This document shows positions 31,414 to 55,926 of a stretch of DNA of 64,000 nucleotides, in pieces (positions within the stretch are counted from its first letter, which is position 1; each line of letters begins with the position of its first letter). Position numbers and translations under genes: made by a program. The notes under the pieces were generated by a model, which had not been told where the DNA came from, did not search any database, and was given only the letters and a program-made list of their open reading frames with translations. Source of the stretch: Peribacillus frigoritolerans (lineage in GTDB: Bacteria > Bacillota > Bacilli > Bacillales > DSM-1321); the NCBI RefSeq assembly GCF_040250305.1, contig NZ_CP158190.1, forward strand, positions 2,884,001 through 2,948,000, written 5' to 3'.

Positions 31414-31855
31414 AAGTTTGTCGACAAAATGGGGTTCGGAATGGTCTTTTCCTAATTCCCTTTCATGATTTTAACCAATACTTTTATTTGGAATGAAACC
31501 ACAACAGATTGAACCTACACTCTTGCCGAATGCTGGCTAGCCGAGACCCGCCTAAATGCTTGCTTTGATGAGGCGAGGCAGGAAGTTGGCGGAAGGGAAC
31601 GGTTTCAATATATGACCGCAAAATGAATGCACGGGGTCCGAATAATACGGTGAACGGTCGAATAATGTGCGGTGTGGATCGGATAAAATGGGTGAACAGT
31701 CGAATAAAGCACGGTGTGGGTCGAATAAACTGCGTGAACGGTCGAATGATGTGTGGTCAAGGTCGAAAAACTGCTTTGGCTGAAACAACTGAGACGTTTT
31801 TTCAATAAAAAACTGCAGGCAAACTCGCTTTTCTTCGAGTTTGTCTACAGTCTGA
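31414..31855 (-). mobile_element. MITE-like element D, IS1182-like ends
   Basis: At 31414 the sequence AGTTTGTCGACAAAATGGGG then TTCGGAA matches the right end of the IS relic at 37.5 kb (AGTTTGTAGACAAAAGGAG then TTCGGAA). At 31855 the minus strand starts TCAGACTGTAGACAAACTCG followed by a hairpin (CAAACTCG / CGAGTTTG), matching that relic's left end. Between the ends there is no transposase, but there is a 21-bp repeat array. The element abuts the pdxR terminator and may end the dsdA transcript through its left-end hairpin. Confidence 0.65.
31631..31775 (-). repeat. 21-bp (heptad-coding) tandem repeat array
   Basis: About seven degenerate copies of a 21-bp unit containing GTCGAATAA. The minus strand stays open across 31552-31788 and would encode heptads such as SFDRSRSL, FDPHRAL, FDCSPIL, SDPHRTL, FDRSPYY and SDPVHSF. 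No ribosome binding site is seen. It lies inside element D. Confidence 0.75.
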
Positions 31856-31879
31856 TAAATTAACTCTAGTGAACATTTT

Positions 31880-33217
31880 TTACCTTTTAGATAAATACTG
31901 GTCCATCATATCCTTTGGCACCATGCTCCCGCCGGTCGCCCAGATGATATGCGTGGACTGGTTCATTTTATCCACCAGTTTTTGGTCCATGAGATATTTC
32001 TTTCCTTCTGGAGCTTTAAAAAGTTGTACCGGACCCAATGCTCCTGCGAGGGCAGATGGCTCTAAATAATGACCTTCCGTCTCTGCCATTCCCCTGAGCA
32101 GATCGAATAACCTTTTATCCTCTATGGTATAGCTGCCGCTTAACATGGTCGTCATCATACGGGAAACCAATTCTGAAGGCCTTCCGACAGCAAGACCATC
32201 AGCTTCCGTCTTATTATCGATGCCAAAGTCCTGCACCGAGATTTTGTCATGAAGGCCTGTCATCAATCCGAGCGTCATGCATGGTGAATGTGTCGGCTCT
32301 GCAAAAAAACAATGTACATCATCTTCAAAGGCTAACTTGAGCCCATATGTAATACCACCGGGCCCGCCGCCGACTCCGCATGGCAGGTACACAAACAAAG
32401 GGTGATCTTCGTCTACTGGTATGGACATATCTTTCAGTTGTTTCTTCAGGCGCGTTGCAGCTGTCGCATAACCTAGCAGTAGATCCATTGAATTTTCATC
32501 ATCAATAAAATGGCAATCGGGATCAAGTGATGCTTCATTACGGCCTTCTTCTACAGCTTTACTATAATCATCATCATATTCCTTTACAATGACTCCAAGA
32601 CTTGTTAATTTATCCTTTTTCCACTGTTTGGCATCTGCCGACATATGGACCGTTACTTTGAATCCCAGCTTAGCGCTTATTATTCCAATACTCATTCCTA
32701 AATTGCCGGTTGAACCGACTGCAATCGAATATTTTGAAAAAAGCTCTTTGTATTCATCGCTCGCAAGTATCCCATAATTATCAGTCCGTTTTAAACCACC
32801 ATGCTTCATTGCTATTTCCTCAGCACGTTTTAAGACCTCATAAATACCTCCGCGAGCCTTGATGGAACCTGATATTGGTAAATGACTGTCACATTTCAGC
32901 AAAAGTTTCCCAGCCATTTTAGTTCCATAGGATTTTTCCAAGTTTTTTTGCATGGAAGGAATCTCGACTAGTGGTGATTCAATGATCCCCTCCATTGGTT
33001 CGGTTTCTGGAAAGGCTTTAATTATATAATTGGCAAATCTATTTAATCTTTCTTCAGCAGATTTAACTTGTTCAGCTTGGACGATTGGGTTTTCTTGCTT
33101 GTTACCGTAATCTGGATTCGTCCAGAAGACTTCGTTCATCTTTATCACATTATTAAGTATAGGATCTTTCGCTTTCCAATCCATGATCGATAAACCTGCG
33201 ATTTTATGCATCTCCAC
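31880..33217 (-). CDS. dsdA: D-serine ammonia-lyase (dehydratase)
   Basis: 445 residues from GTG 33217, chosen because GGGAGGGAC lies 7 bp upstream; the longer frame to 33247 lacks a box. Fold-type II PLP enzyme with PLP Lys120 in [21 protein letters not shown] and CGVGGGPGG are the phosphate-binding loops, and ATGGSMVP lies at the C-terminus. It converts D-serine to pyruvate and ammonia, a detoxifying reaction. No D-serine transporter or regulator is next to it. Confidence 0.95.
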
Positions 33218-33312
33218 AGCAGTCCCTCCCGGAAATGTAGTTTTCATCTTCTACTATAACTCAACAAACTGCGATAAAGATTACAATTTTCACTTTTTTA
33301 CGAATAATCAGC

Positions 33313-35061
33313 TTAGAAAGTCAAATTCACTTTTAATTTCCCTCGCACACTATTAATAAACCAAATTTCCTCAGCGTTATTAAGGTCAGCCTTTGAAATG
33401 GGTTTTTCCATGATTTCCTTCTTCCTGATCAAGTCTTGACGAAATGTTCCAGCAAGCAGACCTGCTTCCACCGGAGGGGTATAGAGTTCACCATTTATCT
33501 TCACCACCACATTTCCGTTCGTGAATTCCGTGATGAATCCTTCTTCATTCCAAAGCAAAACATCATGGAAGTCAGGATTATTCATTTGAAAGCCTTCATA
33601 TACATCACGATTGGTGGTCTTATGAAATAGAAATGGATTTGCACTTGATATTGGAGTTTCAGCCAAGATAGCCGTAAATTCTGATTCAATGGGCTTGATT
33701 GCTTGTCCAGAGACTTCAATTTCACCATTTTCATGAAGTAATACCCTTACCTTTTGTAACGTCCCTTGATTCATATCCGCATACTTTTGGAGTTGATCTC
33801 TAAGATTCAATTCAGGGAACCGGTAATCGAAGTAATCAGCGGATTGTTTCATCCGATCGATATGATCAGTCAACAAATAATATTCGCCATCGCTGAGCTT
33901 CATCGATTCCAATAGTTTGTAAGCAGGCCTTTCCACCGTCAATAATTTGGCTTTTAAAAACGCTTCGTCATATTCTTCAGATAGCTCGGAATCCCAAGTG
34001 ATTCCACCTCCTACCCCATACTCGGCTTTCCCGGTTTCGTTATCGATCACGACCGTACGAATCGGCACATTAAAAACGGCTTCGGATTCAGGGGTGATGA
34101 ACCCGATTGCACCGCAATAAACTTCCCGTGGTGAATTCTCGATATCAGCGATGATTTCCATCGTTTTAATTTTAGGTGCCCCTGTTATCGATCCACAAGG
34201 AAAAAGAGCCCTGAATATATCAATGATTGTTGTTCCTGGATTCGTATCGGCCGTAATCGTGGATGTCATTTGCCAAACGGTCGGATATTTTTCAATTGCC
34301 TTAAGCTGTGGAACCTTGACGCTTCCTGGTTCTGCAATCATTCCCAAATCATTTCTGAGCAGGTCCACAATCATGTAGTTTTCTGCTTGATTCTTTTCCG
34401 AGGCTGCTAACCAGTCTGCATTAAGCTGATCCATTTTCAGTGTCGTTCCCCGCTTTACCGTTCCTTTCATTGGCCGAGTAATCAGCTGACCATCTTCCCA
34501 ACGGAAAAACAACTCGGGTGATGCAGATAGGATTCGATGTGTCCCCACATTCAAATATGCACTATAGTTCGAGCGTTGAGCTCTCTTCAAGCGATCAAAG
34601 AAAGCGAAGTCATCTCCTTCGAACCTGGATTGCAAACGCATCGTGTAATTGACTTGATACGTATTGCCTTTCTCGATTTCCGATTTTATCATTTGAAACC
34701 CGGAATGATAGTTATGTGAATTCGTTTCTGATTGCCATTCAGCTAAATTAAAAGCCCCTGTCATTTTTTCAGGTAATTCTTCTTCCGGTTTATCGAAAAT
34801 CCCGAACCATAATAATGGCATTTTGGCTCCATCTTTTACTTTAAAAGATTTTTCAAAAGCAGGTGCCGCTTCATAGGAAACGTATCCCGCTGCATAATGC
34901 CCCTGTTCTATCGCTTCCTGGACTTTTTGGAATTGGGGAATGACATCCTCAATTGAATGGGCGGTGAACACTTTTTTCGGGTTCGTAAAATATAGAGGCC
35001 TGCTGTCACCTTGTTTATCTGTGAAGTGAAATATTAATGATAAAGGATCTTCTCGTTTCAT
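33313..35061 (-). CDS. pabB: Fused aminodeoxychorismate synthase component I / 4-amino-4-deoxychorismate lyase
   Basis: 582 residues. Residues 1 to about 360 are the chorismate-binding domain (YQVNYTMRLQSRF, RPMKGTVKRG, ENYMIVDLLRNDLGMIA, FPCGSITGAPKIKTMEII, YCGAIGFI). From about 390 a class-IV aminotransferase-like lyase domain follows (TTNRDVYEG, LLWNEEGFITEFTNGNVVV, GLLAGTFRQ, IWFINSVRG). The fusion turns chorismate and ammonia into ADC and then p-aminobenzoate, for folate. No pabA is adjacent, so the glutaminase must come from elsewhere. ATG 35061 follows AGGAG. Confidence 0.93.
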   Translation of the reverse strand: MKREDPLSLIFHFTDKQGDSRPLYFTNPKKVFTAHSIEDVIPQFQKVQEAIEQGHYAAGYVSYEAAPAFEKSFKVKDGAKMPLLWFGIFDKPEEELPEKMTGAFNLAEWQSETNSHNYHSGFQMIKSEIEKGNTYQVNYTMRLQSRFEGDDFAFFDRLKRAQRSNYSAYLNVGTHRILSASPELFFRWEDGQLITRPMKGTVKRGTTLKMDQLNADWLAASEKNQAENYMIVDLLRNDLGMIAEPGSVKVPQLKAIEKYPTVWQMTSTITADTNPGTTIIDIFRALFPCGSITGAPKIKTMEIIADIENSPREVYCGAIGFITPESEAVFNVPIRTVVIDNETGKAEYGVGGGITWDSELSEEYDEAFLKAKLLTVERPAYKLLESMKLSDGEYYLLTDHIDRMKQSADYFDYRFPELNLRDQLQKYADMNQGTLQKVRVLLHENGEIEVSGQAIKPIESEFTAILAETPISSANPFLFHKTTNRDVYEGFQMNNPDFHDVLLWNEEGFITEFTNGNVVVKINGELYTPPVEAGLLAGTFRQDLIRKKEIMEKPISKADLNNAEEIWFINSVRGKLKVNLTF

Positions 35062-35113
35062 TCTTGTCTCCTAACTTTGTTTATGAAGTAAATCGGTATG
35101 TATTTTATAAAAA

Positions 35114-35140
35114 AGCTTGCAGACACGGAATCTGCAAGCT
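35114..35140 (-). terminator. Intrinsic terminator after first LLM monooxygenase gene
   Basis: Perfect 10-bp arms (AGCTTGCAGA / TCTGCAAGCT), 7-base loop, TTTTTTATAAAA tail on the minus strand, 14 bp past the stop. Confidence 0.88.
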
Positions 35141-35153
35141 CATTCTTTGACAC

Positions 35154-36176
35154 TTATTTCATTCCAGTAACCTCTGCAATGATTTCATAAGAACGAAGTC
35201 GTGCAACCTGATCATAAATGGCAGAGTTTATAATCATTTCGTCCGCCTGCGTTTCATTTAAAAATGCCTGCAACTGCTCTTTAACCTCTTTTGGATTTCC
35301 TATGATGGAAGCGTTCAGCTGCTTCATGACAATGGCCTTTTCATATTCTGTCCAAAGGCCTTCCATTGTATCAACTGGAGGAGCAAGTTGACCGGGCGTG
35401 TTCCGTATCAAATTCAAGAACTGCTGTTGATAAGATGTAGCAATCCTTTGCGCTTCTTCTGTAGTATCAGCTGCAAAAACATTGACACCAACCATGACAT
35501 AAGGTTTATCGAGAACGTCGGATGGTTGGAAATTATTGCGGTAACGGGCTAAAGCTGGTTGAGTATTTTCAGGGGAAAAATGACTTGCAAATGAAAATGG
35601 CAATCCCAGCTGTGCTGATAATGCTGCACTGAAGCCGCTTGAACCAAGCAGCCAAATCGGGATATCCTGTCCTTCGCCAGGGATGGCGCGAACACGATTA
35701 TGTTTGGAATTCGCATCTAAATAACTGCGGAGCTGCGCCAATTGTTCAGGAAAATCCTGACCGTTATTACGTACGTCACCCCTGAGTGCCATGGCTGTAT
35801 ATTGGTCGCTTCCCGGAGCTCGCCCAAGCCCTAAATCTATTCTACCAGGATACATTGCTTCCAATGTCCCAAATTGTTCTGCGATAACAAGCGGTGCATG
35901 ATTCGGCAGCATTATGCCGCCAGAACCGACGCGAATTCTTTCCGTCTTTCCCGCAACATGGCCTATAAGCACGGACGTTGCAGAGCTTGCGATCCCTGGC
36001 ATGCTATGGTGTTCTGCAACCCAGAAACGGTTATAATTCCATTGCTCCACATGCTTGGCTAAATCTACTGTATTTTTAAAAGCTCCCGAAACTGTACCAC
36101 CCTCAACGATTGAAGCCAGGTCCAGAACGGAAAAAGAAATGTCGCTAAGTTTTTTTGCATGTTGATCAGCATTCAT
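35154..36176 (-). CDS. LLM class flavin-dependent oxidoreductase (MsnO8/YhbW group)
   Basis: 340 residues, luciferase-like TIM barrel. The diagnostic string is [20 protein letters not shown] at about residues 51-70, then [21 protein letters not shown] and [16 protein letters not shown]. Proteins of this group use reduced FMN and oxygen on unknown small substrates. It is related to, but clearly diverged from, the next upstream gene. Physiological flavin supply could come from the FMN reductase at 26 kb (inference). Confidence 0.88.
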
Positions 36177-36269
36177 ATCTTCATCTTCTTTCTTTCAATT
36201 ATGATAAATTGGACGCAAAGCCATCATATAGAAAATGCACACAAAATGCACACAAAATGCTCGAACGGA

Positions 36270-37268
36270 TTAACTGTTAAGAATTTCCCTGGCAATCAAA
36301 CGAAATGAATTAAGCCTATCCTCCAACTTATGAGTGATGGTTATCAGCATGATTTCATCTGCTTGATATTTCTCCTGAATCTCGTATAGCCGATACTTCA
36401 CTTGTGAAGGAGTACCAAAAATCAGTTTTTCATGCATCGTTTCCATCAGTGCTTTTTCTTTTTCAGTCCAATCATGGCTCCTTACCTCTTCTATGCTTGG
36501 AACCTGCTTTCTTCCACCTTGTCCACTTTGAATTTTCCATAGAATGTTGCTAAGGGCAATTTCTTTCGCATGTTCCTCCGTTTCTGAGCAAATGGCCGAA
36601 ACCGTAACGATCGTTTTAGGTTCTTTAAGCAACCCTTTTGTTTGAAAGTGTTCACGGTACTGATGAAAGCTCTGCACTCCATCATTTTCACTCATGAATT
36701 CACCAAACGCGTATGCAGTCCCATTCTCAGCGGCAAGATTTGCACTTTTCCCGCTTGTTCCCAATATCCATGGTTCAGGCGGCACCTTTGGGATAGGAGC
36801 AGCAGAGACATTTGAAAATGGATGTTCATTCGGAAATTCATCTCTTAGAAAATTCAACAGTTCTTGAACTAGTTCAGGCATTTTATAAACATTCTGAAGA
36901 AAATTATCGGATAATGCCATCGTTGCTTCGGCAGATCCACCAGGAGCACGCCCGATTCCCATATCAATCCGGCCAGGAAAAAGTGTAGCTAGCATATTAT
37001 AAGTCTCTGCTATCCTGTATGGCTTATAATGTGGAAGCAGCACTGCCCCTGAACCAATTCGGATATTTTTTGTTTGTGCACCAATATAGCTTATCAAAAC
37101 CTCTGGAACGGAACAGGCCAATCCTGGGAGATCATGATGTTCAGTTAACCAGATTCTGCTATAACCAAGTCTATCTCCTTCTTGTGCGAGTTGCAGTGAA
37201 GCCTGTAAGGCTTCTTGTGCTGATTGTCCTGATGCAATTGGTGATTGATCCAAAATGCTAAGTTTCAT
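36270..37268 (-). CDS. LLM class flavin-dependent oxidoreductase (second copy)
   Basis: 332 residues with the same family block as its neighbour: IWLTEHHDLPGLACSVPEVL at about residues 40-59, RIGSGAVLLPHYKPYRIAE and FPGRIDMGIGRAPGG. It has PEPWILGTSGKSANLAAENG where the downstream protein has [20 protein letters not shown]. The two genes are tandem paralogues in one direction, 93 bp apart. That gap contains a short AAAATGCACAC tandem repeat. RBS GGAGGTAAC precedes ATG 37268. Confidence 0.88.
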   Translation of the reverse strand: MKLSILDQSPIASGQSAQEALQASLQLAQEGDRLGYSRIWLTEHHDLPGLACSVPEVLISYIGAQTKNIRIGSGAVLLPHYKPYRIAETYNMLATLFPGRIDMGIGRAPGGSAEATMALSDNFLQNVYKMPELVQELLNFLRDEFPNEHPFSNVSAAPIPKVPPEPWILGTSGKSANLAAENGTAYAFGEFMSENDGVQSFHQYREHFQTKGLLKEPKTIVTVSAICSETEEHAKEIALSNILWKIQSGQGGRKQVPSIEEVRSHDWTEKEKALMETMHEKLIFGTPSQVKYRLYEIQEKYQADEIMLITITHKLEDRLNSFRLIAREILNS

Positions 37269-37520
37269 TTTGTTACCTCCTTTCTAGTCTTTCGTAATTT
37301 AATGGTAAATCATAACTAGTCGAAAGTCGCCTGAAACGCTTGCTTTGTTATTTTAGTTTGCGGCCTTTAGCAAAAAATATAAGGAGCTGAATTCAAATTT
37401 GGGAGTATGAGTAAATGGTATATTCTAGCGAGGTTTTTGATTTAATACATCAAGAAGGCAAGTGACATAAATGGTCGTCACTTATTCTATCGAGGTCTTT
37501 TTAGGGATATATGTAAAAAA
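37269..37520. other. Intergenic region without a gene
   Basis: No supported coding sequence. Two related strings, ATTCTAGCGAGGTTTTT near 37422 and ATTCTATCGAGGTCTTTTT near 37484, are about 62 bp apart, and the sequence looks like eroded repeat DNA next to the IS relic. Confidence 0.5.
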
Positions 37521-37544
37521 GAAAAGCCCTTTTAAGGGGCTTTC
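37521..37544. repeat. Copy 1 of a 24-bp direct repeat made of a terminator hairpin
   Basis: Identical over 24 bases to 38171-38194. The unit is itself a hairpin (AAAGCCC / GGGCTTT with a TTTTAAG loop). The two copies flank the IS relic exactly. Confidence 0.9.
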
Positions 37545-38171
37545 TAGTTTGTAGACAAAAGGAGTTCGGAATTAAAAAATTTTGAACCCCTTTTGAAATT
37601 CCCTCTGAATTTCGCCTAAAGTTAAGAGATTGGGGGCTCTACGAGCCCACTATCTTATGCCATTTTTGGTCCTCGCCATGTCCAATTGGTCATCTTCTTT
37701 AAATTAATGGCAGCGAAAGTAAGCATCGCCTGCATCGACAATTTTTTAAGTCCCCTTAAAGTAGTCCAACGCATACCATGCTTTTCTTTTGCATCTGCGA
37801 ATACACGCTCATTCGTTTCTTTACGCTTCGCATATATAGGTTTTACATTTTGATGATGACGCAGATGATCTGCTTCTTCCACATGTGTTTGCCAGATATG
37901 CCGTGTCACCAGGTTTTAATACTTCTATTTTAAAACAAAAATAACTCTAGGCAAAAGTGTTCTATCTAAAAGGTAAGACAAAGTTGATTGGAACGGAAGG
38001 TACGAGACTCCTGCGGGAAAAGCGAGTCTAGGGGAGACCCCGCAGGCGAAAGCCGAGGAGGCTCCCGGACCGCCCGCGGAAAGCGAGTGCCTGTAGTGGA
38101 AATCAACGTCCAAATTGTACAAGCCATAAAAATAGACAAACTCGATTTTCATCGAGTTTGTCTACAGTCTG
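37545..38171 (-). mobile_element. IS1182-like relic (element A) flanked by a 24-bp direct repeat
   Basis: On the minus strand the left end (from 38171) reads TCAGACTGTAGACAAACTCG with a CAAACTCGATGAAAATCGAG-type hairpin. A GC-rich block bounded by GTTGATT and AATCAAC (37983-38107), an AT-rich stretch, a transposase C-terminal fragment and a right end (CTCCTTTTGTCTACAAACTA at about 37545) follow. Left and right ends share TGTAGACAAA in inverted orientation. Only about 630 bp remain of an element that would be about 1.5-2 kb when intact. Confidence 0.75.
37655..37909 (-). pseudogene. IS1182-family transposase, C-terminal fragment
   Basis: 84 codons: HVEEADHLRHHQNVKPIYAK, KRKETNERVFADAKEKHGMR, WTTLRGLKKLSMQAMLTFAA and NLKKMTNWTW. 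The ERVFADAKEKHGMRW motif with its conserved Glu and TTLRGL is the C-terminal DDE block of IS1182-group transposases. The N-terminal catalytic domain is missing and there is no start or RBS. It is non-functional. Confidence 0.85.
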
Positions 38172-38194
38172 AAAAGCCCTTTTAAGGGGCTTTC
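38171..38194 (-). terminator. Terminator of the helicase gene; copy 2 of the 24-bp direct repeat
   Basis: AAAGCCC / GGGCTTT hairpin 6 bp past the helicase stop, with a TTTTCAG tail on the minus strand. The whole hairpin is duplicated at 37521-37544 on the far side of the IS relic. Confidence 0.8.
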
Positions 38195-38199
38195 CAAAG

Positions 38200-47163: not shown

Positions 47164-47850
47164 ATGCTTGAGGAAACTCTGATGAATCATGTAAAAAAGA
47201 TTTCCCATCAAAAAGATATGGCAAATAAATCACAAATGATCGTAAAGGGCTGTGTGGATTTTTTTTCATTTCAACGCGCTTCTTTATTCAGTTACTCATG
47301 TTTAACAGGAATGGGTGAAGGAATATGTGCATGTACAAGTGAAGATACCTTTTCATTACATAATGTTAAAGAAAATATTCATGATATATACCCCATCCAC
47401 CAAGCAGTCATCCATAACAAACCCATATACTTAACCATCCAACATGCGAAATCCTCCATCCCTGCAAAATACGTTAAAAGATTTTCCATCTCTTCATTGG
47501 CTATCATTCCGATAAATGTGAATGACATGGCCATCGGTTTAGTGTTGGTTGATCCCATTCACGCCAACGAGCCTGTTACCAAGAATGATTTAATGAAGCT
47601 TTCCCATTATTTAAAACTGGCTGTCGGTTCGACATTGGATTCCGCCCCTCCAACTTACCTTCTAAGCAAACGTGAAGTGGAGGTCCTTCAATATTTAGCC
47701 AATGGGTTGGGTTTAAAGCAAATGGCACCAAAAATGAGCGTTAGTGAATTTACAGTCAGAGATCATATTTCTTCTGCTATCAGGAAATTGGGAGTGAATC
47801 ACCGGACCGAGGCCGTCGCTGTTGCCATAAGACACAAAATGATTATGTGA
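47164..47850 (+). CDS. LuxR-type HTH transcriptional regulator with GAF-like sensor
   Basis: 228 residues. Residues 1 to about 150 look like a GAF-type sensor (VDFFSFQRASLFSYSCLTGM, SISSLAIIPINVNDMAIGLV). Residues 160-228 form a GerE/LuxR HTH (LLSKREVEVLQYLANGLGLK, APKMSVSEFTVRDHISSAIR, KLGVNHRTEAVAVAIR). It is likely a ligand-controlled activator. It is divergent from R2lox across 131 bp, so R2lox is its most obvious target (inference). A terminator follows at once. Confidence 0.85.
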   Translation: MLEETLMNHVKKISHQKDMANKSQMIVKGCVDFFSFQRASLFSYSCLTGMGEGICACTSEDTFSLHNVKENIHDIYPIHQAVIHNKPIYLTIQHAKSSIPAKYVKRFSISSLAIIPINVNDMAIGLVLVDPIHANEPVTKNDLMKLSHYLKLAVGSTLDSAPPTYLLSKREVEVLQYLANGLGLKQMAPKMSVSEFTVRDHISSAIRKLGVNHRTEAVAVAIRHKMIM

Positions 47851-47857
47851 AACAAAA

Positions 47858-47876
47858 AAACCTTCAAAGAAGGTTT
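47858..47876 (+). terminator. Intrinsic terminator after LuxR-type gene
   Basis: 8-bp arms (AAACCTTC / GAAGGTTT) with a 3-base loop, 7 bp past the stop. The left end of repeat element B starts at the next base, replacing any T-tract. Confidence 0.75.
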
Positions 47877-48216
47877 CGGACTGTAAACAAACTCTATGAA
47901 AATCGAGTTTTTTACGGTTTGTACAATTTGAACGTTGATTTCCTCTCCAGGCACTCGCTTTCCCGCGGGCTCCCCTGGACTCATTTTTCCCGCAAGAGTC
48001 TCGTACCCTCCGTTCCAATCAACTTTGTTTTAACTTTTAGATGAACCCTTTTGCCTATAGTCTTGATTTTAAGGTGATGAGGATGCTTTCTAAACCAGGA
48101 TTTTATTCAGCGAAGACACGTAGGTCTCGTTGAGCCCCAATACTTAAATTTAGGCCAAAATTCAAAGGGAGTTTCAAAAGGGGTTCGGAATTTTTTAATT
48201 CCGAACCCCTTTTTTT
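47877..48216 (+). mobile_element. MITE-like element B, deletion derivative of the IS1182-like element
   Basis: Left end GGACTGTAAACAAACTC with the ATGAAAATCGAGTTT hairpin. The GC-rich block is bounded by GTTGATT (47934) and AATCAAC (48023). A short frame resembling a transposase start (MRMLSKPGFYSAKTRRSR then stop) follows near 48080, and then sequence matching the right end of the relic at 37.5 kb (TTTAGGC, AAATTCA, AGGGA, TTTCAAAAGGGGTTC). The transposase body is deleted. Its right end forms the ilvE terminator. Confidence 0.7.
48176..48213. terminator. Terminator of ilvE, formed by the end of element B
   Basis: Perfect 17-bp arms (AAAAGGGGTTCGGAATT / AATTCCGAACCCCTTTT) with a 4-base loop, 9 bp past the ilvE stop. 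The same sequence is an element end at the 37.5-kb copy. Confidence 0.85.
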
Positions 48217-48222
48217 TAAGTC

Positions 48223-49311
48223 TCATTGAGTCACTTTTTCTTCAACTTTCGTAGTCCAATTCAACTCGTCTGCGACTTTACCTGTTTGGACACCTGTCAG
48301 TGTATCATACAGCTTTCTGGAAAGTTCGCCAGTTTCCCCGCTTTGAACAATCATTTCTTCACCATTCCACAAAAATTCACCAATTGGTGATATGACCGCG
48401 GCTGTTCCCGTTCCAAAGGCCTCTTCCAAGTGACCTAATTTATGGGCTTCATGGACTTCCTCCATCGAAATGCGTCTTTCCGACACGGGAAGACCCCAAT
48501 GTTTCAGCAATTCTATAATGGAATCACGAGTAATGCCCGGAAGGATGCTTCCATTTAAAGCAGGGGTGATGATTTCACCATTAATTTTGAAGAACACATT
48601 CATGCTTCCAACTTCTTCGATATACTTTTTCTCCACTCCGTCTAACCAAAGAACTTGGGCATAACCCATCTTTTCGGATACTTCCTGGGCTTTTAGGCTC
48701 GATGCATAATTACCGCCCGTTTTGGCTTCACCTGTACCTCCATTAACTGCACGTGTAAAAGCTGACTCCACTGCAATTTTAACTGGATGAATGCCTTCTT
48801 TATAATACGAACCTACTGGTGACATGATGATGATGAATTGATACTTATTCGATGGAGATACTCCAAGATAAGGCTCAGTAGCTATAATGAATGGCCTGAT
48901 ATATAAAGATGTCCCTTCTACCTGGGGAACCCAATCCTTATCAACGCTAATTAAAGTCTTTAAGGCCTTCAACGCAAAATCAACGTCGATATCCGGTATG
49001 CATAATCGGCTATTTGAACTATTTAAGCGTTGGAAATTCTTTTCCGGACGGAATAAGATAATTTCATCCTCTGGTGATGCATATGCCTTCAATCCTTCAA
49101 AAACGGATTGACCATAGTGAAAAATCATAGCTGACGGCTCTAATGAGAGCGGTTGATAAGGAACAATTCTTGGATCATGCCACCCTTGCCCTTGTGTGTA
49201 ATCCATAATAAACATATGATCGGTAAACTGCTTACCGAACTCAAGCTGGTCCGCTTGTGGTTTTTCTTTCTTTGTTGTACTAAGCGTGATTTGCATGTCA
49301 TGTTCCTTCAT
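48223..49311 (-). CDS. ilvE: Branched-chain amino acid aminotransferase
   Basis: 362 residues from ATG 49311 (MKEHDMQITLSTTKK), 8 bp after AAGGGG; the longer frame to 49356 has no box. It is a fold-type IV PLP enzyme. HYGQSVFEGLKAY, YIRPFIIATEP, TGGNYASSLKAQ (PLP Lys in GGNYASSLKA), EEVGSMNVFF and EAFGTGTAAVISPIG match IlvE/YwaA. It makes valine, leucine and isoleucine from their keto acids or degrades them. Its leader contains a CodY-like box within a large inverted repeat. Confidence 0.96.
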   Translation of the reverse strand: MKEHDMQITLSTTKKEKPQADQLEFGKQFTDHMFIMDYTQGQGWHDPRIVPYQPLSLEPSAMIFHYGQSVFEGLKAYASPEDEIILFRPEKNFQRLNSSNSRLCIPDIDVDFALKALKTLISVDKDWVPQVEGTSLYIRPFIIATEPYLGVSPSNKYQFIIIMSPVGSYYKEGIHPVKIAVESAFTRAVNGGTGEAKTGGNYASSLKAQEVSEKMGYAQVLWLDGVEKKYIEEVGSMNVFFKINGEIITPALNGSILPGITRDSIIELLKHWGLPVSERRISMEEVHEAHKLGHLEEAFGTGTAAVISPIGEFLWNGEEMIVQSGETGELSRKLYDTLTGVQTGKVADELNWTTKVEEKVTQ

Positions 49312-49387
49312 TACCAAAACCCCTTGTTGATTAAATTTACAAGATTTCACTTCCATAAAATCTATCTTTAATTAGTTTACTCCTATA

Positions 49388-49476
49388 AGGAATCATAGTT
49401 CAAGTCTTTAAGACGAAATTTTCGGAATTTTTTTAAAATAAATGGGTTTTTCTTTGATTTCCAGACTATGATTCCT
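49388..49476 (-). promoter_or_regulatory. ilvE leader: long-range inverted repeat enclosing a CodY-like box
   Basis: 12-bp perfect arms AGGAATCATAGT (49388-49399) and ACTATGATTCCT (49465-49476) are separated by 65 bases. Inside lies AAAATTCCGAAAATT (minus strand, 49417-49431), three mismatches from the CodY consensus AATTTTCWGAAAATT. CodY control of ilvE is known in B. subtilis. Whether the inverted repeat acts as RNA or as DNA is open. The remaining gap up to 49894 shows no gene. Confidence 0.5.
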
Positions 49477-49894
49477 GAAAAAAGAACCAATTATCCTGAA
49501 ACCTCTAAAAATATCAATTCCGATTGTACGCTAAGATGTCTTGAATATTAGATTAATTTTATCAAAATAATCACATTAAAGCCAATGAGAATAATTCTGG
49601 TTCATGGCACCTCAAGAGTAAATTCAATCGTTTCCCCTTTTTGTAACCAGGAAAATCGATAAATGAAAAGACTTTTAGCAGATTCGTGAATAAAACACTA
49701 AAGCAAATACCTGCAAACCTTATATGTATAATAAAAAACCTAAGAATATATAACATTTTTAACCCGAATCCCTAAAGTGTTTTTTTCGTACCATTCCCAT
49801 TTTTAAGCCAATGGAATATAGAGGGAATTTTTTCATGAATTGCAAATTAGTAGTTTACTACTAATTAATATTCTTATATACTTATTCCACAAGA

Positions 49895-49942
49895 TAGATA
49901 AAACGCATGCAAAACGTTATATTATAGATAAAACGCATGCAA
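49895..49942. repeat. Pair of 18-bp direct repeats upstream of MFS gene
   Basis: TAGATAAAACGCATGCAA occurs identically at 49895-49912 and 49925-49942 (30-bp period) and contains the palindrome GCATGC. It ends about 32 bp before the MFS start codon, so it could be an operator. Confidence 0.8.
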
Positions 49943-49974
49943 CTTTCTTATTTTTGACGAAAAGGGGTAACAAT

Positions 49975-51243
49975 ATGACAAAAAACAGATGGTTAATCGC
50001 TTTATCCGCTATCGCCATTCACCTTTCAATTGGTGGGGCATATGCATATAGCGTTTACAAAAAACCATTAGTTGAGACTATGGGATGGTCAGAAACTGAA
50101 GTAACGTTAGCATTCACAATAATGATGGCGCTTGCAGGAACTTCAGCTGCTTTCTTTGGCAAATTCGTAGAAAAAAATGGTCCAAGGAAGTCAGCCATGG
50201 TCGCTGCTGTATTATTCGGTTTAGGACAAGCTGGTTCCGGTTTAGCAGTAATGGTCGATTCACTTCCGCTTTACCTATTGACATATGGGGTTTTAAGTGG
50301 ACTTGGTATGGGGATCGGGTACATTTCACCAGTATCCACTTTAGTCAAATGGTTCCCAGATCGCAGGGGATTGGCAACAGGAATGGCAGTATTAGGTTTC
50401 GGGGCCGGAGCACTCATTACAGCGCCAGTAGCTGCAAGCCTAATGGAATCCGTTGGCATTTATTCTACATATTATATTTTAGGCGCAGGCTATTTCATAC
50501 TGATGTTCTTAGGGGCATCCTATATTGCCCCTCCAAAGGCCAACTGGCTACCTGAAGGAATGAAGAAAGATATTGAGTCAGGTAAGAAAGAACTGAAGAA
50601 AGACCTAAGGCAATTAACTGCAAAAGAAGCGGTTAAAACTAAACACTTCTGGATGTTATGGTCCATGAAATTGATAAATACAAGTGCAGGTATCATGATG
50701 ATTTCGGTAGCTTCACCAATGGCTCAAGACGTTGTTGGTCTGTCTGTAGCAGGTGCAGCAACATTAGTCGGAATTATGGGAATCTTTAATGGCGGAGGAA
50801 GACTTGGCTGGGCAGCAGCATCAGATTATATTGGACGTCCAAATGTTTTCGTCATTTTCTTCATCATTCAAATCGGAGCGTTCCTTTTACTTCCAACGAC
50901 TACAAATACACTATTGTTCCAAGGACTCATCTTGTTGGTCGTTAGTTGTTATGGAGGAGGATTTTCAAATCTCCCTGCATTTGCCGGGGATTTATTTGGA
51001 ACTAAGGAAATTGGTGCCATCCACGGTTACCTTTTAACTACATGGTCTCTAGGCGGGGTTTGCGGACCTATGTTAGTTACCGCAATCAGGGAAAGTACGA
51101 ACAGTTATATCCCGGTTTTCTACGTTTTCGCAGCATTAATTGCAATAGCATTTGCCATCTCCATCTGGTTGCGTCTGGACATTAAAAAAATGCAAAAAGC
51201 ACAGAAACAAGGAGTAACGAACACATTCAGTAAAATATCCTAA
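49975..51243 (+). CDS. OFA (oxalate/formate antiporter-like) MFS transporter
   Basis: 422 residues from ATG 49975 (MTKNRWLIALSAIAIHLSIG), behind AAAGGGG; the upstream frame is the direct-repeat region. Twelve hydrophobic segments are evident. The family strings are GGAYAYSVYKKPLVETMGWS, FFGKFVEKNGPRKS (loop 2-3 MFS motif), GLGMGIGYISPVSTLVKWFP, DRRGLATGMAVLGFGAGAL and NGGGRLGWAAASDYIGR. OFA proteins exchange oxalate/formate or carry lactate and pyruvate; the substrate here is undetermined. Strong terminator at 51257. Confidence 0.9.
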   Translation: MTKNRWLIALSAIAIHLSIGGAYAYSVYKKPLVETMGWSETEVTLAFTIMMALAGTSAAFFGKFVEKNGPRKSAMVAAVLFGLGQAGSGLAVMVDSLPLYLLTYGVLSGLGMGIGYISPVSTLVKWFPDRRGLATGMAVLGFGAGALITAPVAASLMESVGIYSTYYILGAGYFILMFLGASYIAPPKANWLPEGMKKDIESGKKELKKDLRQLTAKEAVKTKHFWMLWSMKLINTSAGIMMISVASPMAQDVVGLSVAGAATLVGIMGIFNGGGRLGWAAASDYIGRPNVFVIFFIIQIGAFLLLPTTTNTLLFQGLILLVVSCYGGGFSNLPAFAGDLFGTKEIGAIHGYLLTTWSLGGVCGPMLVTAIRESTNSYIPVFYVFAALIAIAFAISIWLRLDIKKMQKAQKQGVTNTFSKIS

Positions 51244-51256
51244 TTTAAATCCTTGC

Positions 51257-51316
51257 AAAAAGGCATTATCAAGTAAAGTTCCATAACCGGAATTTACCTT
51301 TGATGATGCCTTTTTT
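51257..51316 (+). terminator. Long terminator after MFS gene
   Basis: AAAAAGGCATTATCAAGTAAA pairs, with few mismatches, with TTTACCTTTGATGATGCCTT followed by a T run; the inner GTTCC/GGAA also pairs. T-rich tail on the plus strand. Confidence 0.85.
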
Positions 51317-51725
51317 GTTTATGACCTTAACGGTGGCTGCTCTTAAAAAGCCTTCGTATACCTTCCGAGATTGAGATAATTCGAAATCTTTTTGGAACTT
51401 TTTATGATTTATCATCCCAGCAGGATTCTTTGCTGGTGCAATTTTCAGCATTGCTTAAACTAAATCGCAATAGTCTAGGGAAATGCAGTTATTGGGATTA
51501 TCGACTTATGAACGTGAGGACAGGTAAAAGTCATAGTGACCAAATATTTTTTTATGTTGACCTTCATTTTGCAATGAAAGTCTTGTTTTCGTTTGCTTGC
51601 CACTATTTTAACAGGCTGTATTCCCATTTCCTTCTGGTCAGCCCAAACAATTTGAACAAGTTATTTAGTTTAACATTAAGCTAAATCAGGGAATCAAGTA
51701 AGAGATGGAATTAGGGGGGATTGTC
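51317..51725. other. Intergenic region without a supported gene
   Basis: About 400 bp with only short spurious frames. Near the AI-2E gene, TTTAGTTTAA and TTAAGCTAAA form a 10-bp hairpin around CA (about 51664-51685), which may be part of that gene's leader. Confidence 0.5.
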
Positions 51726-52793
51726 TTGTGGATCAATAAACCGTTTTTCAAATATGCATGCGCGATCATTTTGATCATTTTAATTATTTTTTTACTAGGT
51801 AAAATTGATTATGTTCTGCAGCCGCTACAAAAAATCATTGCTGCCATGTTTTTCCCTATTATTGTGGCTGGGCTTTTATACTATATATTACGGCCGGTCG
51901 TTAACTTTTTAACTGAATTTATCCCGAGGTCAGCTAGCATCTTCATCGTTTTTTTAATTATATTTAGTATGGTTGGGATGGTAGGTTACTTTGGCAGTCC
52001 TGTAATCGTGGACCAATTTCAAAAATTATCTGAAAACCTACCCAGCAAAGTGAAGGAATTCTCTAAAGAATCTGAAGTCATGATTGAAAAAAATGATTTT
52101 GGCATGGTTAATATGGAAGAATGGAAAGAAAAAGCGGTCACACATTTGAAAGATTACTCTGAAAAACTCATAGTGAATGTCAATACGATTTTTTCCACGA
52201 TCACTAGTGTATTAACAGTATTGGTCATTACACCATTCATTTTATTCTATTTCTTGAAGGATGGAGATAAATTAAGACCATTTCTATTAAAATATATTCC
52301 GACCGATGTAGAATCAGAGGGAAACACGATTTTAAAAGACGTCGATAAAACCCTTTCAACTTATATTATCGGTCAATTCATCATATCAATCGTCATTGGG
52401 ACTTTAATGTATATTGGCTACCTTATTATCGGTCTCGATTATGCACTTGTATTAGCCCTATTCGCCATGATTTTTACCGTTGTACCATTCCTTGGTCCAT
52501 TAATAAGCATCATCCCTGCCCTCTTCATTGCCTTACAGCAAGACATTGGGTTGGCAGTAAAAGTACTCATTGTCCTTACCGTTGTTCAACAAGTCGAAGG
52601 GCACTTGGTTACACCGAATATTATGGGAAAACGTCTTAACATTCACCCACTTACCATTATCTTATTGCTGCTTGCTGCAGGATCAATATACGGTTTCATT
52701 GGCATTTTAATCGCTATCCCCACTTATTCCGTAGTAAAAACGATTATAGGAAATTTCAGGAAGTTTTATAACTTACGGAAAAGGGTTGCATAA
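51726..52793 (+). CDS. AI-2E family transporter (UPF0118)
   Basis: 355 residues from TTG 51726 (LWINKPFFKYACAIILIILI), 6 bp after AGGGGGG; the ATG at 51705 has no box. Two N-terminal helices, a soluble segment (about residues 95-145) and five or more C-terminal helices are seen. The family block is GTLMYIGYLIIGLDYALVLA, VPFLGPLISIIPALFIALQQ and QVEGHLVTPNIMGKRLNIHP. Despite the family name, many members are Na+/H+ antiporters or general efflux proteins, so no substrate is claimed. Confidence 0.9.
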   Translation: MWINKPFFKYACAIILIILIIFLLGKIDYVLQPLQKIIAAMFFPIIVAGLLYYILRPVVNFLTEFIPRSASIFIVFLIIFSMVGMVGYFGSPVIVDQFQKLSENLPSKVKEFSKESEVMIEKNDFGMVNMEEWKEKAVTHLKDYSEKLIVNVNTIFSTITSVLTVLVITPFILFYFLKDGDKLRPFLLKYIPTDVESEGNTILKDVDKTLSTYIIGQFIISIVIGTLMYIGYLIIGLDYALVLALFAMIFTVVPFLGPLISIIPALFIALQQDIGLAVKVLIVLTVVQQVEGHLVTPNIMGKRLNIHPLTIILLLLAAGSIYGFIGILIAIPTYSVVKTIIGNFRKFYNLRKRVA

Positions 52794-52865
52794 TCAGGAA
52801 TGGTTGTCTACACAATTAATTAAAGACGCTATAAAAAATAAAAACAAAAATCATTCATCAACTTT

Positions 52866-53005
52866 TCAGACGTAGACAAACTTTAGGATAGGTGAGTTTG
52901 CCTGCAGTTTTTTGATTTTAAAAACGTTCCAGTTGGTTCATCCACATAAAACAGTAAAAAACAAGAAGGATAACCTTCTTCCGTGCCTCCTTTTGTAGAC
53001 AAACT
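52866..53005 (+). mobile_element. Minimal MITE-like element E (about 140 bp)
   Basis: Left end TCAGACGTAGACAAACTTTA with the GTTTGCCTGCAGTTTTTT continuation seen in element D. Right end CCTCCTTTTGTAGACAAACTA matches the right end of element A. No coding capacity. It abuts the yueI terminator hairpin at 53007. The left flank ATCATTCATCAACTTT resembles an eroded copy of that hairpin. Confidence 0.6.
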
Positions 53006-53006
53006 A

Positions 53007-53034
53007 AAAACGTTGATAATTCTATCAACGTTTT
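53007..53034 (-). terminator. Terminator of yueI overlapping its stop codon
   Basis: Perfect 12-bp arms (AAAACGTTGATA / TATCAACGTTTT) with a 4-base loop. The stop codon lies in the right arm. Confidence 0.85.
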
Positions 53035-53474
53035 AATAATTTTTTAACAAAGCGTTTGAAAAACGCTTTGAAGCTTTTCTTTTTGATAACTTGCTGGGCA
53101 TGAAATTTCTTCTCGATATGAATTTCCTCTTTGTTTATGGCATTATTTTCTGCTAATACCAAACCCAAATCGGAGTTGTGATCTTTGTTTAGGACAATTT
53201 TATAAGGAATATTATGACTCATTGCCAATTTAATATATTTCCCTAAATATTGATAGTCCATCTGACCATTTAAAAACAAATTGGAACGGGGATACTGCTT
53301 CATCATTTGCTCTATCTCGGGATATACATTCGTTTCAAAGACTTGGCTTTTTTTTAGTACGATGACGACGCGCTCCCGTAATGTGCCCAGAAATTCCCTT
53401 CGTTCGCCTGGCTTTATTTCTTTTGGACCATGGATTCCTTGTTCTAGATAGTCCTCCACATTTAGGCGTGACAA
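53025..53474 (-). CDS. yueI: YueI family protein (DUF1694)
   Basis: 149 residues. The DUF1694 pattern is IHGPKEIKPGERREFLGTLR, ERVVIVLKKSQV, MKQYPRSNLFLNGQMDYQYL, GKYIKLAMSHNIPYKIVLNK and LGLVLAENNAIN. A Lys/Phe-rich basic tail (KKKSFKAFFKRFVKKLLKR) follows. It is a small cytosolic protein of unknown function, conserved through Bacillales. It is divergent from the L,D-transpeptidase gene. Confidence 0.85.
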   Translation of the reverse strand: MSRLNVEDYLEQGIHGPKEIKPGERREFLGTLRERVVIVLKKSQVFETNVYPEIEQMMKQYPRSNLFLNGQMDYQYLGKYIKLAMSHNIPYKIVLNKDHNSDLGLVLAENNAINKEEIHIEKKFHAQQVIKKKSFKAFFKRFVKKLLKR

Positions 53475-53699
53475 TTCTTTTCCTCCTCCGCTTTCACTTC
53501 AATAATGTATGTAATATGGCCAAAAATAGTGCCCATCATTCTTTAAGTATGCATAAAAGTGAAATTTGGTCTAAGTTTGACTTTTCCCATAGTTAATTAG
53601 TCTACTCTTATTTTAAAAAAATGTCACTTTAGCCTTACTTCATGCATAGGATAGTATATGTGTAAATTTAGGTTGCTTAAATGAGGGACGGGGAAAAAC

Positions 53700-54443
53700 A
53701 TGAAAAAATTAATTGTATTTGTATTGATATTCGCCTTTAGTTTTTTGGGGTTCAGTAATACTTCAGGTGCGGCAGCAAGACAACTGATTATCATCAATAA
53801 AACCAATAATCAGCTTGCCTATTACGAAAATGATAAATTGGTGAGGGTATTTATCGTGGCGACTGGTAAGAAAGCCTCCTACACTCCTGAAGGAAAGTTC
53901 AAGGTAGTGACAAAGATTGTGAATCGTCCCTATTATAAAGGCAACATTAGAGGCGGAGACCCAAAAAACCCTCTAGGTAAAAGATGGCTGGGGATCAATG
54001 CAAGGAATACACCAGGAAATACGTACGCAATACACGGCAATAATGATTCTACAACCATTGGGAAATATATAAGTGCCGGTTGTATTCGTATGTATAACAA
54101 TGATGTTCAATGGCTTTACGATAGGGTGAGAATGAACACTGTAGTCTTGATAGCCAGTTCGAATAAATCATTTGCCAACATAGCTGCAACGAATGGATAT
54201 AAAGTGAGCGGATCTGTGAGCCTACCTGTAAATACCAACTCTACCCTAAAAAAAGGAAGCAGTGGCCCCCAAGTAATTGAACTGCAAAAAAGATTAACTA
54301 AACTTGGATTCAGCACTAAAGGAGTAGATGGGTCATTTGGAAAAAACACAGAAACAGCTGTAAAAAAATTCCAAAGTTCTAAAAAGCTTACTTCTGATGG
54401 GATCGTCGGACCAAAAACGAAAAAAGCGCTTGGACTTAAATAA
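53700..54443 (+). CDS. L,D-transpeptidase with C-terminal peptidoglycan-binding domain
   Basis: 247 residues. A signal peptide spans about residues 1-24 (MKKLIVFVLIFAFSFLGFSN). The YkuD domain has the catalytic signature His112 (IHGNN) and Cys128 (SAGCIRM). A PG_binding_1 domain covers residues 184-247 (SSGPQVIELQKRLTKLGF, DGIVGPKTKKAL). The secreted enzyme makes 3-3 cross-links in peptidoglycan and resembles spore-cortex/wall YkuD-type enzymes. It ends in a clear terminator. Confidence 0.95.
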   Translation: MKKLIVFVLIFAFSFLGFSNTSGAAARQLIIINKTNNQLAYYENDKLVRVFIVATGKKASYTPEGKFKVVTKIVNRPYYKGNIRGGDPKNPLGKRWLGINARNTPGNTYAIHGNNDSTTIGKYISAGCIRMYNNDVQWLYDRVRMNTVVLIASSNKSFANIAATNGYKVSGSVSLPVNTNSTLKKGSSGPQVIELQKRLTKLGFSTKGVDGSFGKNTETAVKKFQSSKKLTSDGIVGPKTKKALGLK

Positions 54444-54454
54444 TTTTCATTGCC

Positions 54455-54483
54455 GATATCCACTTTTAGAGGATATCTTTTTT
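54455..54483 (+). terminator. Intrinsic terminator after L,D-transpeptidase gene
   Basis: GATATCC / GGATATC arms, 9-base loop, TTTTTT tail, 11 bp past the stop. Confidence 0.85.
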
Positions 54484-54623
54484 GTGTTTTAACTTTCCGG
54501 CCTATACATTATTACCCATATCGTCTTTAATTTTCCACCATCAGTTATTGACTTTATGTTATAATTTATACATCAACAGCTAATCATAATCGCACTGTCA
54601 TTACATACAAGGAGGTAATACAA

Positions 54624-54725
54624 ATGTACGATGAAATTCTCGTAAATTCCATTAAAGCAATTTTTGTTATTGGCACCATCTCGATGTTCGTGATATTAGG
54701 ATTCGTAAAAGGACGACGGTTTTAA
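54624..54725 (+). CDS. Very small membrane protein (33 aa)
   Basis: ATG 54624 follows a strong AAGGAGG box by 7 bp. The protein is MYDEILVNSIKAIFVIGTIS then MFVILGFVKGRRF. That is one hydrophobic helix (about residues 9-28) with an acidic N-terminus and a basic GRRF tail, so N-out/C-in topology is predicted. It has its own terminator at 54758. I do not recognise a family. It is too short for usual gene callers. Confidence 0.7.
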   Translation: MYDEILVNSIKAIFVIGTISMFVILGFVKGRRF

Positions 54726-54757
54726 CTTTATCCAATTCTTTAAAATATCCTCACTTG

Positions 54758-54794
54758 CCTGATTACTTGTATTTTTTTCATACCGGTAATCAGG
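54758..54794 (+). terminator. Terminator after the 33-aa gene
   Basis: Perfect 9-bp arms (CCTGATTAC / GTAATCAGG) with a 19-base loop and a TTATTTT tail on the plus strand. Confidence 0.7.
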
Positions 54795-54811
54795 TTATTT
54801 TCAGTCAGAAA

Positions 54812-54838
54812 AAAAGCATATCCTCTCTGGGCATGCTT
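54812..54838 (-). terminator. Terminator after the 40-aa gene
   Basis: GCATGCCC and GGATATGC pair around AGAGA (one G-U and one mismatch), followed on the minus strand by TTTTTTTC, five bases past the stop codon. Confidence 0.7.
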
Positions 54839-54842
54839 TTCC

Positions 54843-54965
54843 TTACCAATTATCCGTTTTATCTAAAAGTTGATCGATGTCAAATGTATCAAGATGGAAT
54901 GGAACTGACTCTTCTGCAATCGCTTCAGTGGCTAACAATAATTGGTCGATATCGATAATGGCCAA
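54843..54965 (-). CDS. Very small acidic protein (40 aa)
   Basis: TTG 54965 follows AGGGAGAGG. The translation is MAIIDIDQLLLATEAIAEES then VPFHLDTFDIDQLLDKTDNW. It contains two D(I)DQLL motifs (residues 6-10 and 29-33), is strongly acidic and has no membrane segment. A terminator lies immediately downstream. No family is recognised. The paired (D)IDQLL motifs suggest a short linear binding motif or an internal duplication. Confidence 0.65.
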   Translation of the reverse strand: MAIIDIDQLLLATEAIAEESVPFHLDTFDIDQLLDKTDNW

Positions 54966-55074
54966 AACAGTCCTCTCCCTTTTTTAATGGTTTTACCCTC
55001 ATTTTTAATACACTAAACAATTCGTTCAAAAGATATATTATTAGAGGGTATCCTTTAAATTTTACATTTGACAA

Positions 55075-55497
55075 TTATTTTAGATGCAGAGAATCCTTTT
55101 CAGATCCTTCCGGAGAAAGCGTATGTATCAATTTAACCAGCTTATAAAAGGTCCCGCTGCATATTGTTACCTCGGGAAGATTATGAAATATTGATTTTTT
55201 ATTAATATGATAATTGTCTTTCTCAGGTGAATACACAATAATTTTCTTATTTAAAGACAAAGCATATCCAAGCTCATATAGATTACCTTTTCCTGCTGTT
55301 AGGAAGATCAGCATGAAATCGGCTTCCTCAATCCCCTTTTTCTCATATTCTCCAATGCCGTCCGTTATTTGGTTTTTCTCATCATTCGTAATTAAATTCA
55401 AGTCATTCACACATGTAAACCCTTTTGAAGTCAATTTCTTGATCAATGATTTGACTTGCTTTAAATTTTTTTCATCTGATGCTATATAATATTTCAC
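55075..55497 (-). CDS. Nucleoside 2-deoxyribosyltransferase-like protein
   Basis: 140 residues. It opens MKYYIASDEKNLKQVKSLIK. The core is EADFMLIFLTAGKGNLYELG then YALSLNKKIIVY at about residues 58-90, the pattern of the nucleoside deoxyribosyltransferase/TIR-like fold with the catalytic-type Glu in LYELGYA. Family members cleave N-glycosidic bonds of nucleosides or related nucleotides. The degree of divergence leaves the activity open. It stands alone, with an RBS-like GGAGGTG before ATG 55497. Confidence 0.65.
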   Translation of the reverse strand: MKYYIASDEKNLKQVKSLIKKLTSKGFTCVNDLNLITNDEKNQITDGIGEYEKKGIEEADFMLIFLTAGKGNLYELGYALSLNKKIIVYSPEKDNYHINKKSIFHNLPEVTICSGTFYKLVKLIHTLSPEGSEKDSLHLK

Positions 55498-55633
55498 ACA
55501 TACACCTCCAAAAAATATAACTATTGATACTTTTTACCTACGTTACCTATACTATACATATTCGTTATAAAGAACGCAATATCCTTTCCCAAAAATTAAA
55601 AAATAATTAATTGGAAATTTTAAGCGAAATAAA

Positions 55634-55666
55634 AAACCATCATTCCTTTACAGGTCATGATGGTTT
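55634..55666 (-). terminator. Orphan terminator next to element C
   Basis: Perfect 10-bp arms (AAACCATCAT / ATGATGGTTT), with a TTTTTTATTTCG tail on the minus strand. No minus-strand gene ends here now. Confidence 0.7.
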
Positions 55667-55926
55667 CAGACTGTAGACATACTCAATGAAAATCGAGTTT
55701 GCCTGTTTTTTTAGGGGTTTGTACAATTAGACTGTTAATTTCCTCTCCAGGCACTCGCTTTCCGCGGGCTCCCCAGGACTCGTTTTTCCCGCAGGAGTCT
55801 CGCACACCCGCTCCAATCAACTTTGTTTAACTTTTAGATAGAACCCTTTTTTCCAAAAGTCTTCATTGTTTTAAATAGAATGATTAAAACTTGAGGTGAT
55901 GATGGTGCTTTCTCCTGGATAAATAC
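55667..55926 (+). mobile_element. MITE-like element C (IS1182-like left half)
   Basis: Left end CAGACTGTAGACATACTC with an ATGAAAATCGAGTTTGCC hairpin, and the GC-rich block bounded by GTTAATT (55734) and AATCAAC (55821). An AT-rich stretch and AGGTGATGATGGTGCTTTCT follow, as at the transposase start of element B. No right end is visible. The sequence to 56110 is non-coding and unassigned. Confidence 0.65.

Follow-up and report, generated by a model that had tools for sequence, protein, structure and literature searches.

Insertion sequences of the IS1182 family at terminators of Peribacillus: duplication of the whole terminator hairpin

Five short elements lie in a 64,000-nucleotide stretch of the Peribacillus frigoritolerans genome (contig NZ_CP158190.1, positions 2884001-2948000 of a single contig of 5,596,670 bases; this stretch is called the window), and each of them stands next to a transcription terminator. 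What places them there? An earlier reading of the window, made from the sequence only (the sequence-only reading), had taken them for a family of miniature inverted-repeat transposable elements (MITEs) that is mobilised by an IS1182-like transposase, targets terminators and so avoids damaging genes. We found that the elements are an insertion sequence (IS) of the IS1182 family, about 1740 bp in close relatives and with the ends 5'-CAGACTG...CAAACTG-3', together with its decayed copies and non-autonomous derivatives. The explanation that fits the data best, and that we hold with considerable confidence, is that these elements insert at terminator hairpins and duplicate the whole hairpin.

We asked how often the element ends adjoin a terminator. 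In the window, all five elements have an end that touches a terminator-type stem-loop at the positions proposed earlier (Table 1), and the gene names proposed earlier agree with the neighbouring gene families for the genes tested. Genome-wide, the left-end motif (up to 3 mismatches, inner arms of the tip palindrome included) was found at 122 places versus 1 for the reversed control, and the right-end motif, which is less specific, at 108 places versus 36. Of the 122 places, 100 were listed, and these gave 88 left ends after removal of the inner arms; about 7 of the 88 appeared by eye to be leftover inner arms or chance matches and were kept in the count, while the left end of element 4 is not in this set. 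A strong stem, defined as one with a score of at least 14 ending no more than 3 bases from the junction, abuts 57 of the 88 left ends, as against 64 of 1760 positions shifted by 60-400 bp and, among random intergenic positions of the window, 198 of 4000. At the strictest score, the counts were 33/88, 4/1760 and 68/4000. The left ends of elements 1 and 5 fail the score, element 1 touching its terminator by the right end and element 5 having a loop too long to be scored. These counts led us to reject chance adjacency of element ends to terminators, and the enrichment that the sequence-only reading had anticipated was borne out. With up to 2 mismatches and inner arms included, the motif was present in 33 of 36 genomes of the genus, at 1 to 130 places each.

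No intact transposase of this IS1182-type family was found in the genome of the window, in which the profile PF13751 gave three matches, all of them relics. A full-length relic is located at 3090809-3092476 of the genome. It has stops in all three forward frames, and the same terminator hairpin stands on either side of it as an identical 27-base repeat. Relatives of a 209-residue open piece of this relic were found in 32 of the 43 genomes of the family, including two that we refer to as G026 (49 matches) and G038 (17 matches). Copies with the same ends, about 1740 bp in length and with long open frames, are present in genomes of the same genus; the 1740-bp element contains a single long open reading frame (ORF) and is bounded by the terminal inverted repeats CAGACTGTAGACAAA and CAGTTTGTAGACAAA. 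We fetched 37 of the 49 copies from G026 and 16 of the 17 from G038, and 49 of these 53 lie in open frames of 473-474 codons. The IS1182 profile NF033551 was passed by all three proteins compared with it (458.6, 475.3 and 460 bits; cut-off 270), and the domains DUF772 and DDE_Tnp_1_6 were detected in both transposases tested. By name, the closest transposase relatives come from Peribacillus, followed by other Bacillaceae and neighbours. A check of the catalytic site showed that N replaces the first D of VF(I/V)DSTH in 2 of the 37 G026 copies (L259 and one other). The cysteines C321, C324, C350, C353 and C359 are invariant in 22 aligned transposases (alignment A1, residues 321-359), a zinc-ribbon-like pattern near or inside the DDE domain, and this cysteine-rich insert is a candidate for contact with the hairpin target. 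The IS1182-like partner with the same ends that had been proposed earlier thus exists as a family, represented by the decayed full-length copy in this genome and by long-ORF copies in the genus, but none was found intact in the window's own genome.

We then analyzed the flanks of the 53 copies from G026 and G038. Both ends are present in 51 of them; L262 has no right tip, yet carries the same hairpin on both sides, and L276 has no left end. A direct repeat of 16-35 bp (mean 25.4 bp, SD 3.8; up to 2 mismatches) abuts both ends in 48 of the 51 copies. The repeats were found to be hairpins: of the 8 outermost positions, 7 or more are paired in 46 of the 48 repeats, and the outermost six are all paired in 41. 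The best hairpin axis coincides with the repeat axis (offset 0) in 46 of 48, among only 17 axes tried around the repeat centre. By a fold-based measure, the repeat extends on the 5' side 1-3 bp past the outermost G-C pair in 41 of 48 sites. At the target site, the terminator hairpin is duplicated in its entirety, stem feet included; the duplication varies in length and is centred on the hairpin axis.

Repeats of this kind could also come from a transposase with a fixed stagger and a preference for AT-rich gene ends, if the narrow size range of terminators made the repeats look hairpin-sized by accident. The mean and spread of the repeat lengths do resemble a typical terminator, and the correlations between repeat length and hairpin length are weak to moderate under successive hairpin definitions (r 0.24, P 0.10; r 0.30, rho 0.47; r 0.37, rho 0.49), because A- and T-tracts pair beyond the repeat. 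Since other hairpin definitions improved the correlations only partly, the weight rests on the axis test, the end-to-end pairing and a permutation of lengths. A fixed stagger is at odds with all three: the repeat centre lies on the hairpin axis, the shortest repeat (16 bp, AGACCCATTCGGGTCT) and the longest (35 bp) each pair from end to end, and in 36 of 48 sites the length of the repeat agrees with the hairpin at that site, compared with a mean of 18.7 and a maximum of 29 when lengths were permuted (10,000 trials). We therefore consider a fixed stagger very improbable.

The closest systems known behave differently at their targets. IS1272 and TnSha1 of staphylococci likewise belong to the IS1182 family, use stem-loop targets that have no sequence consensus and in several cases are terminators, and are found in either orientation at one target (PMC5678879, PMC4923244). 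In the IS1272 model outlined there, the 3' ends of the element attack the 3' feet of the extruded stem-loop, which is lost (PMC5678879). For TnSha1, deletion of the stem-loop and no duplication are reported (PMC4923244). Insertion at a stem-loop is thus common to these systems and our elements, whereas IS1272 and TnSha1 replace or partly delete the stem-loop without target duplication and our elements duplicate all of it.

If our elements replaced the stem-loop in the same manner, the two hairpins would have been pre-existing neighbours or would have arisen by recombination. Membership of the same family and the reported removal of the stem-loop by IS1272 (PMC5678879, PMC4923244) favour such an account, as do two of the 51 copies (L280 and L288) that carry two different hairpins. 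However, the same hairpin stands on both sides in 48 of 51 copies, and empty alleles have one. The latter emerged from a comparison, tallied by eye, of three window sites with the best-matching 20 of 29, 32 and 23 genomes, the window's own included, which leaves 19 relatives. The site of element 2 is filled in the window's genome, and in 14 of 19 relatives a single hairpin is followed by the downstream sequence with no element; in the others, one contig ends at the hairpin and four differ (three with right-tip-like relics and one with a left-tip-like relic). The repeats and the empty-site comparison rule out stem-loop replacement for this subgroup, and we regard it as extremely improbable. Insertion at terminators, as proposed earlier, was supported; what that proposal had missed was the duplication of the whole hairpin, for example the same hairpin on both sides of element 2.

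The other two sites differ in orientation among genomes. At the site of element 3, in 20 genomes, the element was left-first in five (own and same-species genomes included) and right-first in two; eight were empty, one contig ended there and four were not comparable. At the site of element 1, again in 20 genomes, four were left-first, five right-first (own and same-species genomes included), six relic-like, three empty and two not comparable; of the 19 relatives, 3 thus have the orthologous pdxR hairpin without an element, and several have it with one. Both orientations occur at the same terminators, and therefore more than one insertion took place.

To look beyond these genomes, we analyzed 80 loci in named genomes, some of which may equal genomes among the other relatives. 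Twelve were set aside because a contig end was too near, and the remaining 68 were searched for the longest flanking repeat without any use of hairpins. A flanking repeat of at least 13 bases was found in 59 of 68 loci and one of at least 18 bases in 54. Untrimmed, 43 of these 54 repeats have at least 7 of their 8 outer positions paired, versus 68 of 10,800 equal-length random windows drawn from these loci; when as many as 4 bases could be removed at either end, the counts were 53 of 54 and 979 of 10,800. The 53 palindromic repeats measure 19-36 bp and come from 23 organism labels, including Cytobacillus, Lysinibacillus, Metabacillus, Mesobacillus, Ureibacillus, Priestia and Saccharibacillus. 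The distance between the flanking repeats was 1510-1831 bp in 52 of these 53 loci and 2047 bp in one.

The gene context of the 48 sites with repeats bears on the role of selection. In 46 of them, an open frame of at least 60 codons ends towards the hairpin on one side or both, at a median distance of 21 bp by a crude frame test that has no null; where only one side was assigned, the two orientations numbered 12 and 10. At least one side has a tract rich in A or T (5 of 8 bases) in 47 of 48. Such a distribution could follow from random insertion, or insertion weakly biased to AT-rich or intergenic DNA, with selection clearing the copies that harm genes and leaving those at terminators. Purifying selection must act, and the position of nearly all sites beside the end of an open frame agrees with it. 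Selection cannot, however, set the junctions at the foot of the stem or make the repeat equal to the hairpin, and other intergenic positions adjoin a stem far less often than the left ends do (198/4000 versus 57/88). The duplicated-hairpin junctions rule out selection as the sole cause, and we find this account very improbable.

The elements also carry hairpins at their own tips. A right-tip stem of at least 10 bp was found in 48 of 53 relatives (shuffled control, 0 of 53), and by eye the right-tip hairpins differ in sequence while pairing persists. We had expected a strong left-tip hairpin in all relatives, which was ruled out, as a left-tip stem of at least 10 bp was present in 15 of 53, a lower bound in that the repeat search misplaced the left boundary in at least 4 of the 53 loci. 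In many copies of the window's genome, and likewise in G026, the left tip forms a long hairpin with a T-tract behind it. At sites whose host stem no longer has a T-tract, such a tip could serve to end transcription.

Insertion at palindromes is not new to this family. PMC5678879 cites the review by Siguier et al. 2015 for the statement that 'Some members target palindromic sequences' and remarks that the review offers no detailed data; our elements resemble the family in this respect, and their transposases match its profile. IS1182 relatives are described in PMC12056078 as acting with or without target duplication. Small non-autonomous repeats are also known from pneumococci as RUP, BOX and SPRITE, of which SPRITE is terminator-like; unlike for the elements here, hairpin duplication is not mentioned for them in the accessible part of PMC10969869. 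Whole stem-loop duplication as an observed event was not found described in the open-licence literature, mostly titles and the beginnings of abstracts; only PMC5678879 draws such a pathway (Fig. 13, pathway b), hypothetically and with no example in the part of the discussion available: the 5' feet are attacked, and the stem-loop is duplicated as a whole. The elements here fit this pathway, although the strand chemistry is something we infer. Targeting of stem-loops by the IS1182 family was thus already known, and what appears to be new is the duplication of the whole hairpin in natural insertions. Repeat lengths are known to vary widely among the IS1182-family entries of ISfinder. Group IIC introns also insert beside terminator hairpins, as our elements do, but they are retrotransposing RNA elements without a DDE transposase.

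In the mechanism that we propose, the palindrome would be recognised as a structure, either an extruded cruciform or a hairpin, and not as a sequence. On each strand, the transposase would join a 3' end of the element to the hairpin at its 5' foot, the stagger would equal the hairpin length, and repair would copy the whole hairpin. Because the terminator would be regenerated and the element would add its own tip hairpins, an insertion would be nearly silent for the flanking genes and would leave a fresh target for the next one. The elements have probably spread in this way with little harm to genes, through the hairpin copied to both sides, and the anatomy of the sites makes it plausible that the choice of terminators limits harm to the host. 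We lean, with some reserve, towards a wider account, in which a DDE transposase reads its stagger off the secondary structure of the target instead of having it fixed by the enzyme and cuts at both 5' feet of the extruded hairpin; terminators across Bacillaceae and neighbours would then be safe havens that renew themselves, are hit again and again in either orientation and allow tandem re-insertion.

Several observations weigh against insertion with whole-hairpin duplication. In the genome of the window, 31 of the 88 left ends score below 14, and many copies show only one recognisable hairpin. Three of 51 copies in G026 and G038 are without a repeat, including L280 and L288 with their two different hairpins, and 9 of 68 loci in named genomes gave no flanking repeat. 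The length correlations are modest, the axis test spanned few axes, and the left-tip hairpin is less regular than the right. A T-rich tract (5 of 8 bases T) lies to the right of the second hairpin copy in 38 of 48 sites. The choice of hairpins is inseparable from the choice of terminators, and rarity of insertions in genes from purifying selection; extrusion and the strand-joining points are inferred from sequence. The family is not uniform, because another member, ISPse1, is tabulated in PMC3281130 with a value of 4, which we read as the repeat length.

Some individual copies have a history of their own. The two different terminator hairpins of L280 and L288 are as expected after recombination between two copies. 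The third copy without a repeat, L271, is inserted in the left-tip hairpin of an older element, and the incoming left tip has apparently merged with the target hairpin. In L258, the right end of an older element touches the hairpin used by a second copy, which looks like two tandem elements at one regenerated terminator.

The derivatives can be grouped by the parts of the IS that they retain. In a class of about 235 bp, nt 1-222 of the IS are joined to 1718-1740; six copies are clear (right match from 1718/1719), one has a slightly shorter two-part match and two have the left match only. Other classes have only the tips (1-38 and ~1713-1740) around foreign interiors, as in element 1. Several derivatives carry hairpin repeats, and therefore they probably moved as units. 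Their shared ends and hairpin repeats suggest that they were mobilised in trans by the IS transposase, which would have happened while an intact enzyme was present. These derivatives are MITEs in that they are short, lack a transposase gene, have the ends of a related IS and occur in several copies of the same structure. Two arrays, at genome positions 1551942-1552822 and 1035577-1036653 (L010 and L026), were considered as repeated re-insertions; this was rejected, as they look like internal tandem duplications of derivatives.

Within the window, elements 1 and 4 fit the short MITE form, but elements 2, 3 and 5 derive from the IS itself by deletion or truncation, so that the description of all five as a MITE family holds in part. 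The ends that the five had been said to share are recognisable as variants; however, an exact match to the 10-mer TGTAGACAAA or to its complement is present at just four places of the window (37550, 52994, 31840 and 38157), and no right end can be recognised for elements 3 and 5 at their loci. For element 3, the last bases and a second terminator copy were looked for at the locus and not found. Element 2 carries a C-terminal transposase relic (PF13751, minus strand). The interior of element 1 contains a tandem repeat of about 42 bp (31634-31774; GTCGAATAA...CGGTGT), the inverse of whose motif recurs, by eye, in the array at genome position 1035577. Elsewhere in the window, a 23-bp tandem repeat is present in three copies at 24309-24377.

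Table 1 Elements of the window and the hairpins adjoining them, in window coordinates.
Feature	Position	Strand	Remarks
Host terminator hairpin, PdxR-like gene (GntR/aminotransferase)	31386..31413	+	touches right end of element 1
Element 1, ~440-bp MITE (type B)	31414..31854	-	only tips in common with IS (nt 1-38, 1713-1739)
Probable decayed duplicate of pdxR hairpin, past element 1	31864..31881	+	AGTGAAC and T-tract; weak, by eye
Helicase-gene terminator, copy 1	37521..37544	-	identical over 24 bases to 38171-38194
Element 2, 626-627 bp, internal-deletion derivative of IS	37545..38171	-	IS nt 1-261 and 1366-1739
Helicase-gene terminator, copy 2	38171..38194	-	base 38171 common to end of element 2
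Host terminator hairpin, LuxR-type gene	47855..47876	+	adjoins element 3 (starts 47877)
Element 3, deletion derivative of IS	47877..48213	+	left tip and right-tip hairpin retained
Right-tip hairpin of element 3	48176..48213	+	element 3 stops within this hairpin
Probable decayed second terminator copy, left of element 4	52852..52866		weak, by eye
Element 4, ~139-bp MITE	52867..53005	+	left and right ends present
Host terminator hairpin, DUF1694 (YueI) gene	53006..53034	-	touches right end of element 4
Host hairpin	55634..55666		touches left end of element 5
Element 5, truncated left part of IS	55667..55926	+	reaches transposase start region

The stagger of a transposase is usually regarded as characteristic and close to constant. 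In these elements it is apparently set by the structure of the target, and the hypothetical pathway drawn for IS1272 becomes testable with dozens of natural insertions. Insertion of this kind would explain how many genomes of a genus can hold tens to about a hundred places with the motif (inner arms included) with little harm. The insertions are also evidence from nature that the palindromes of terminators may behave as structured DNA inside cells, and they serve as a warning that some terminators and repeats in these genomes stem from transposition.
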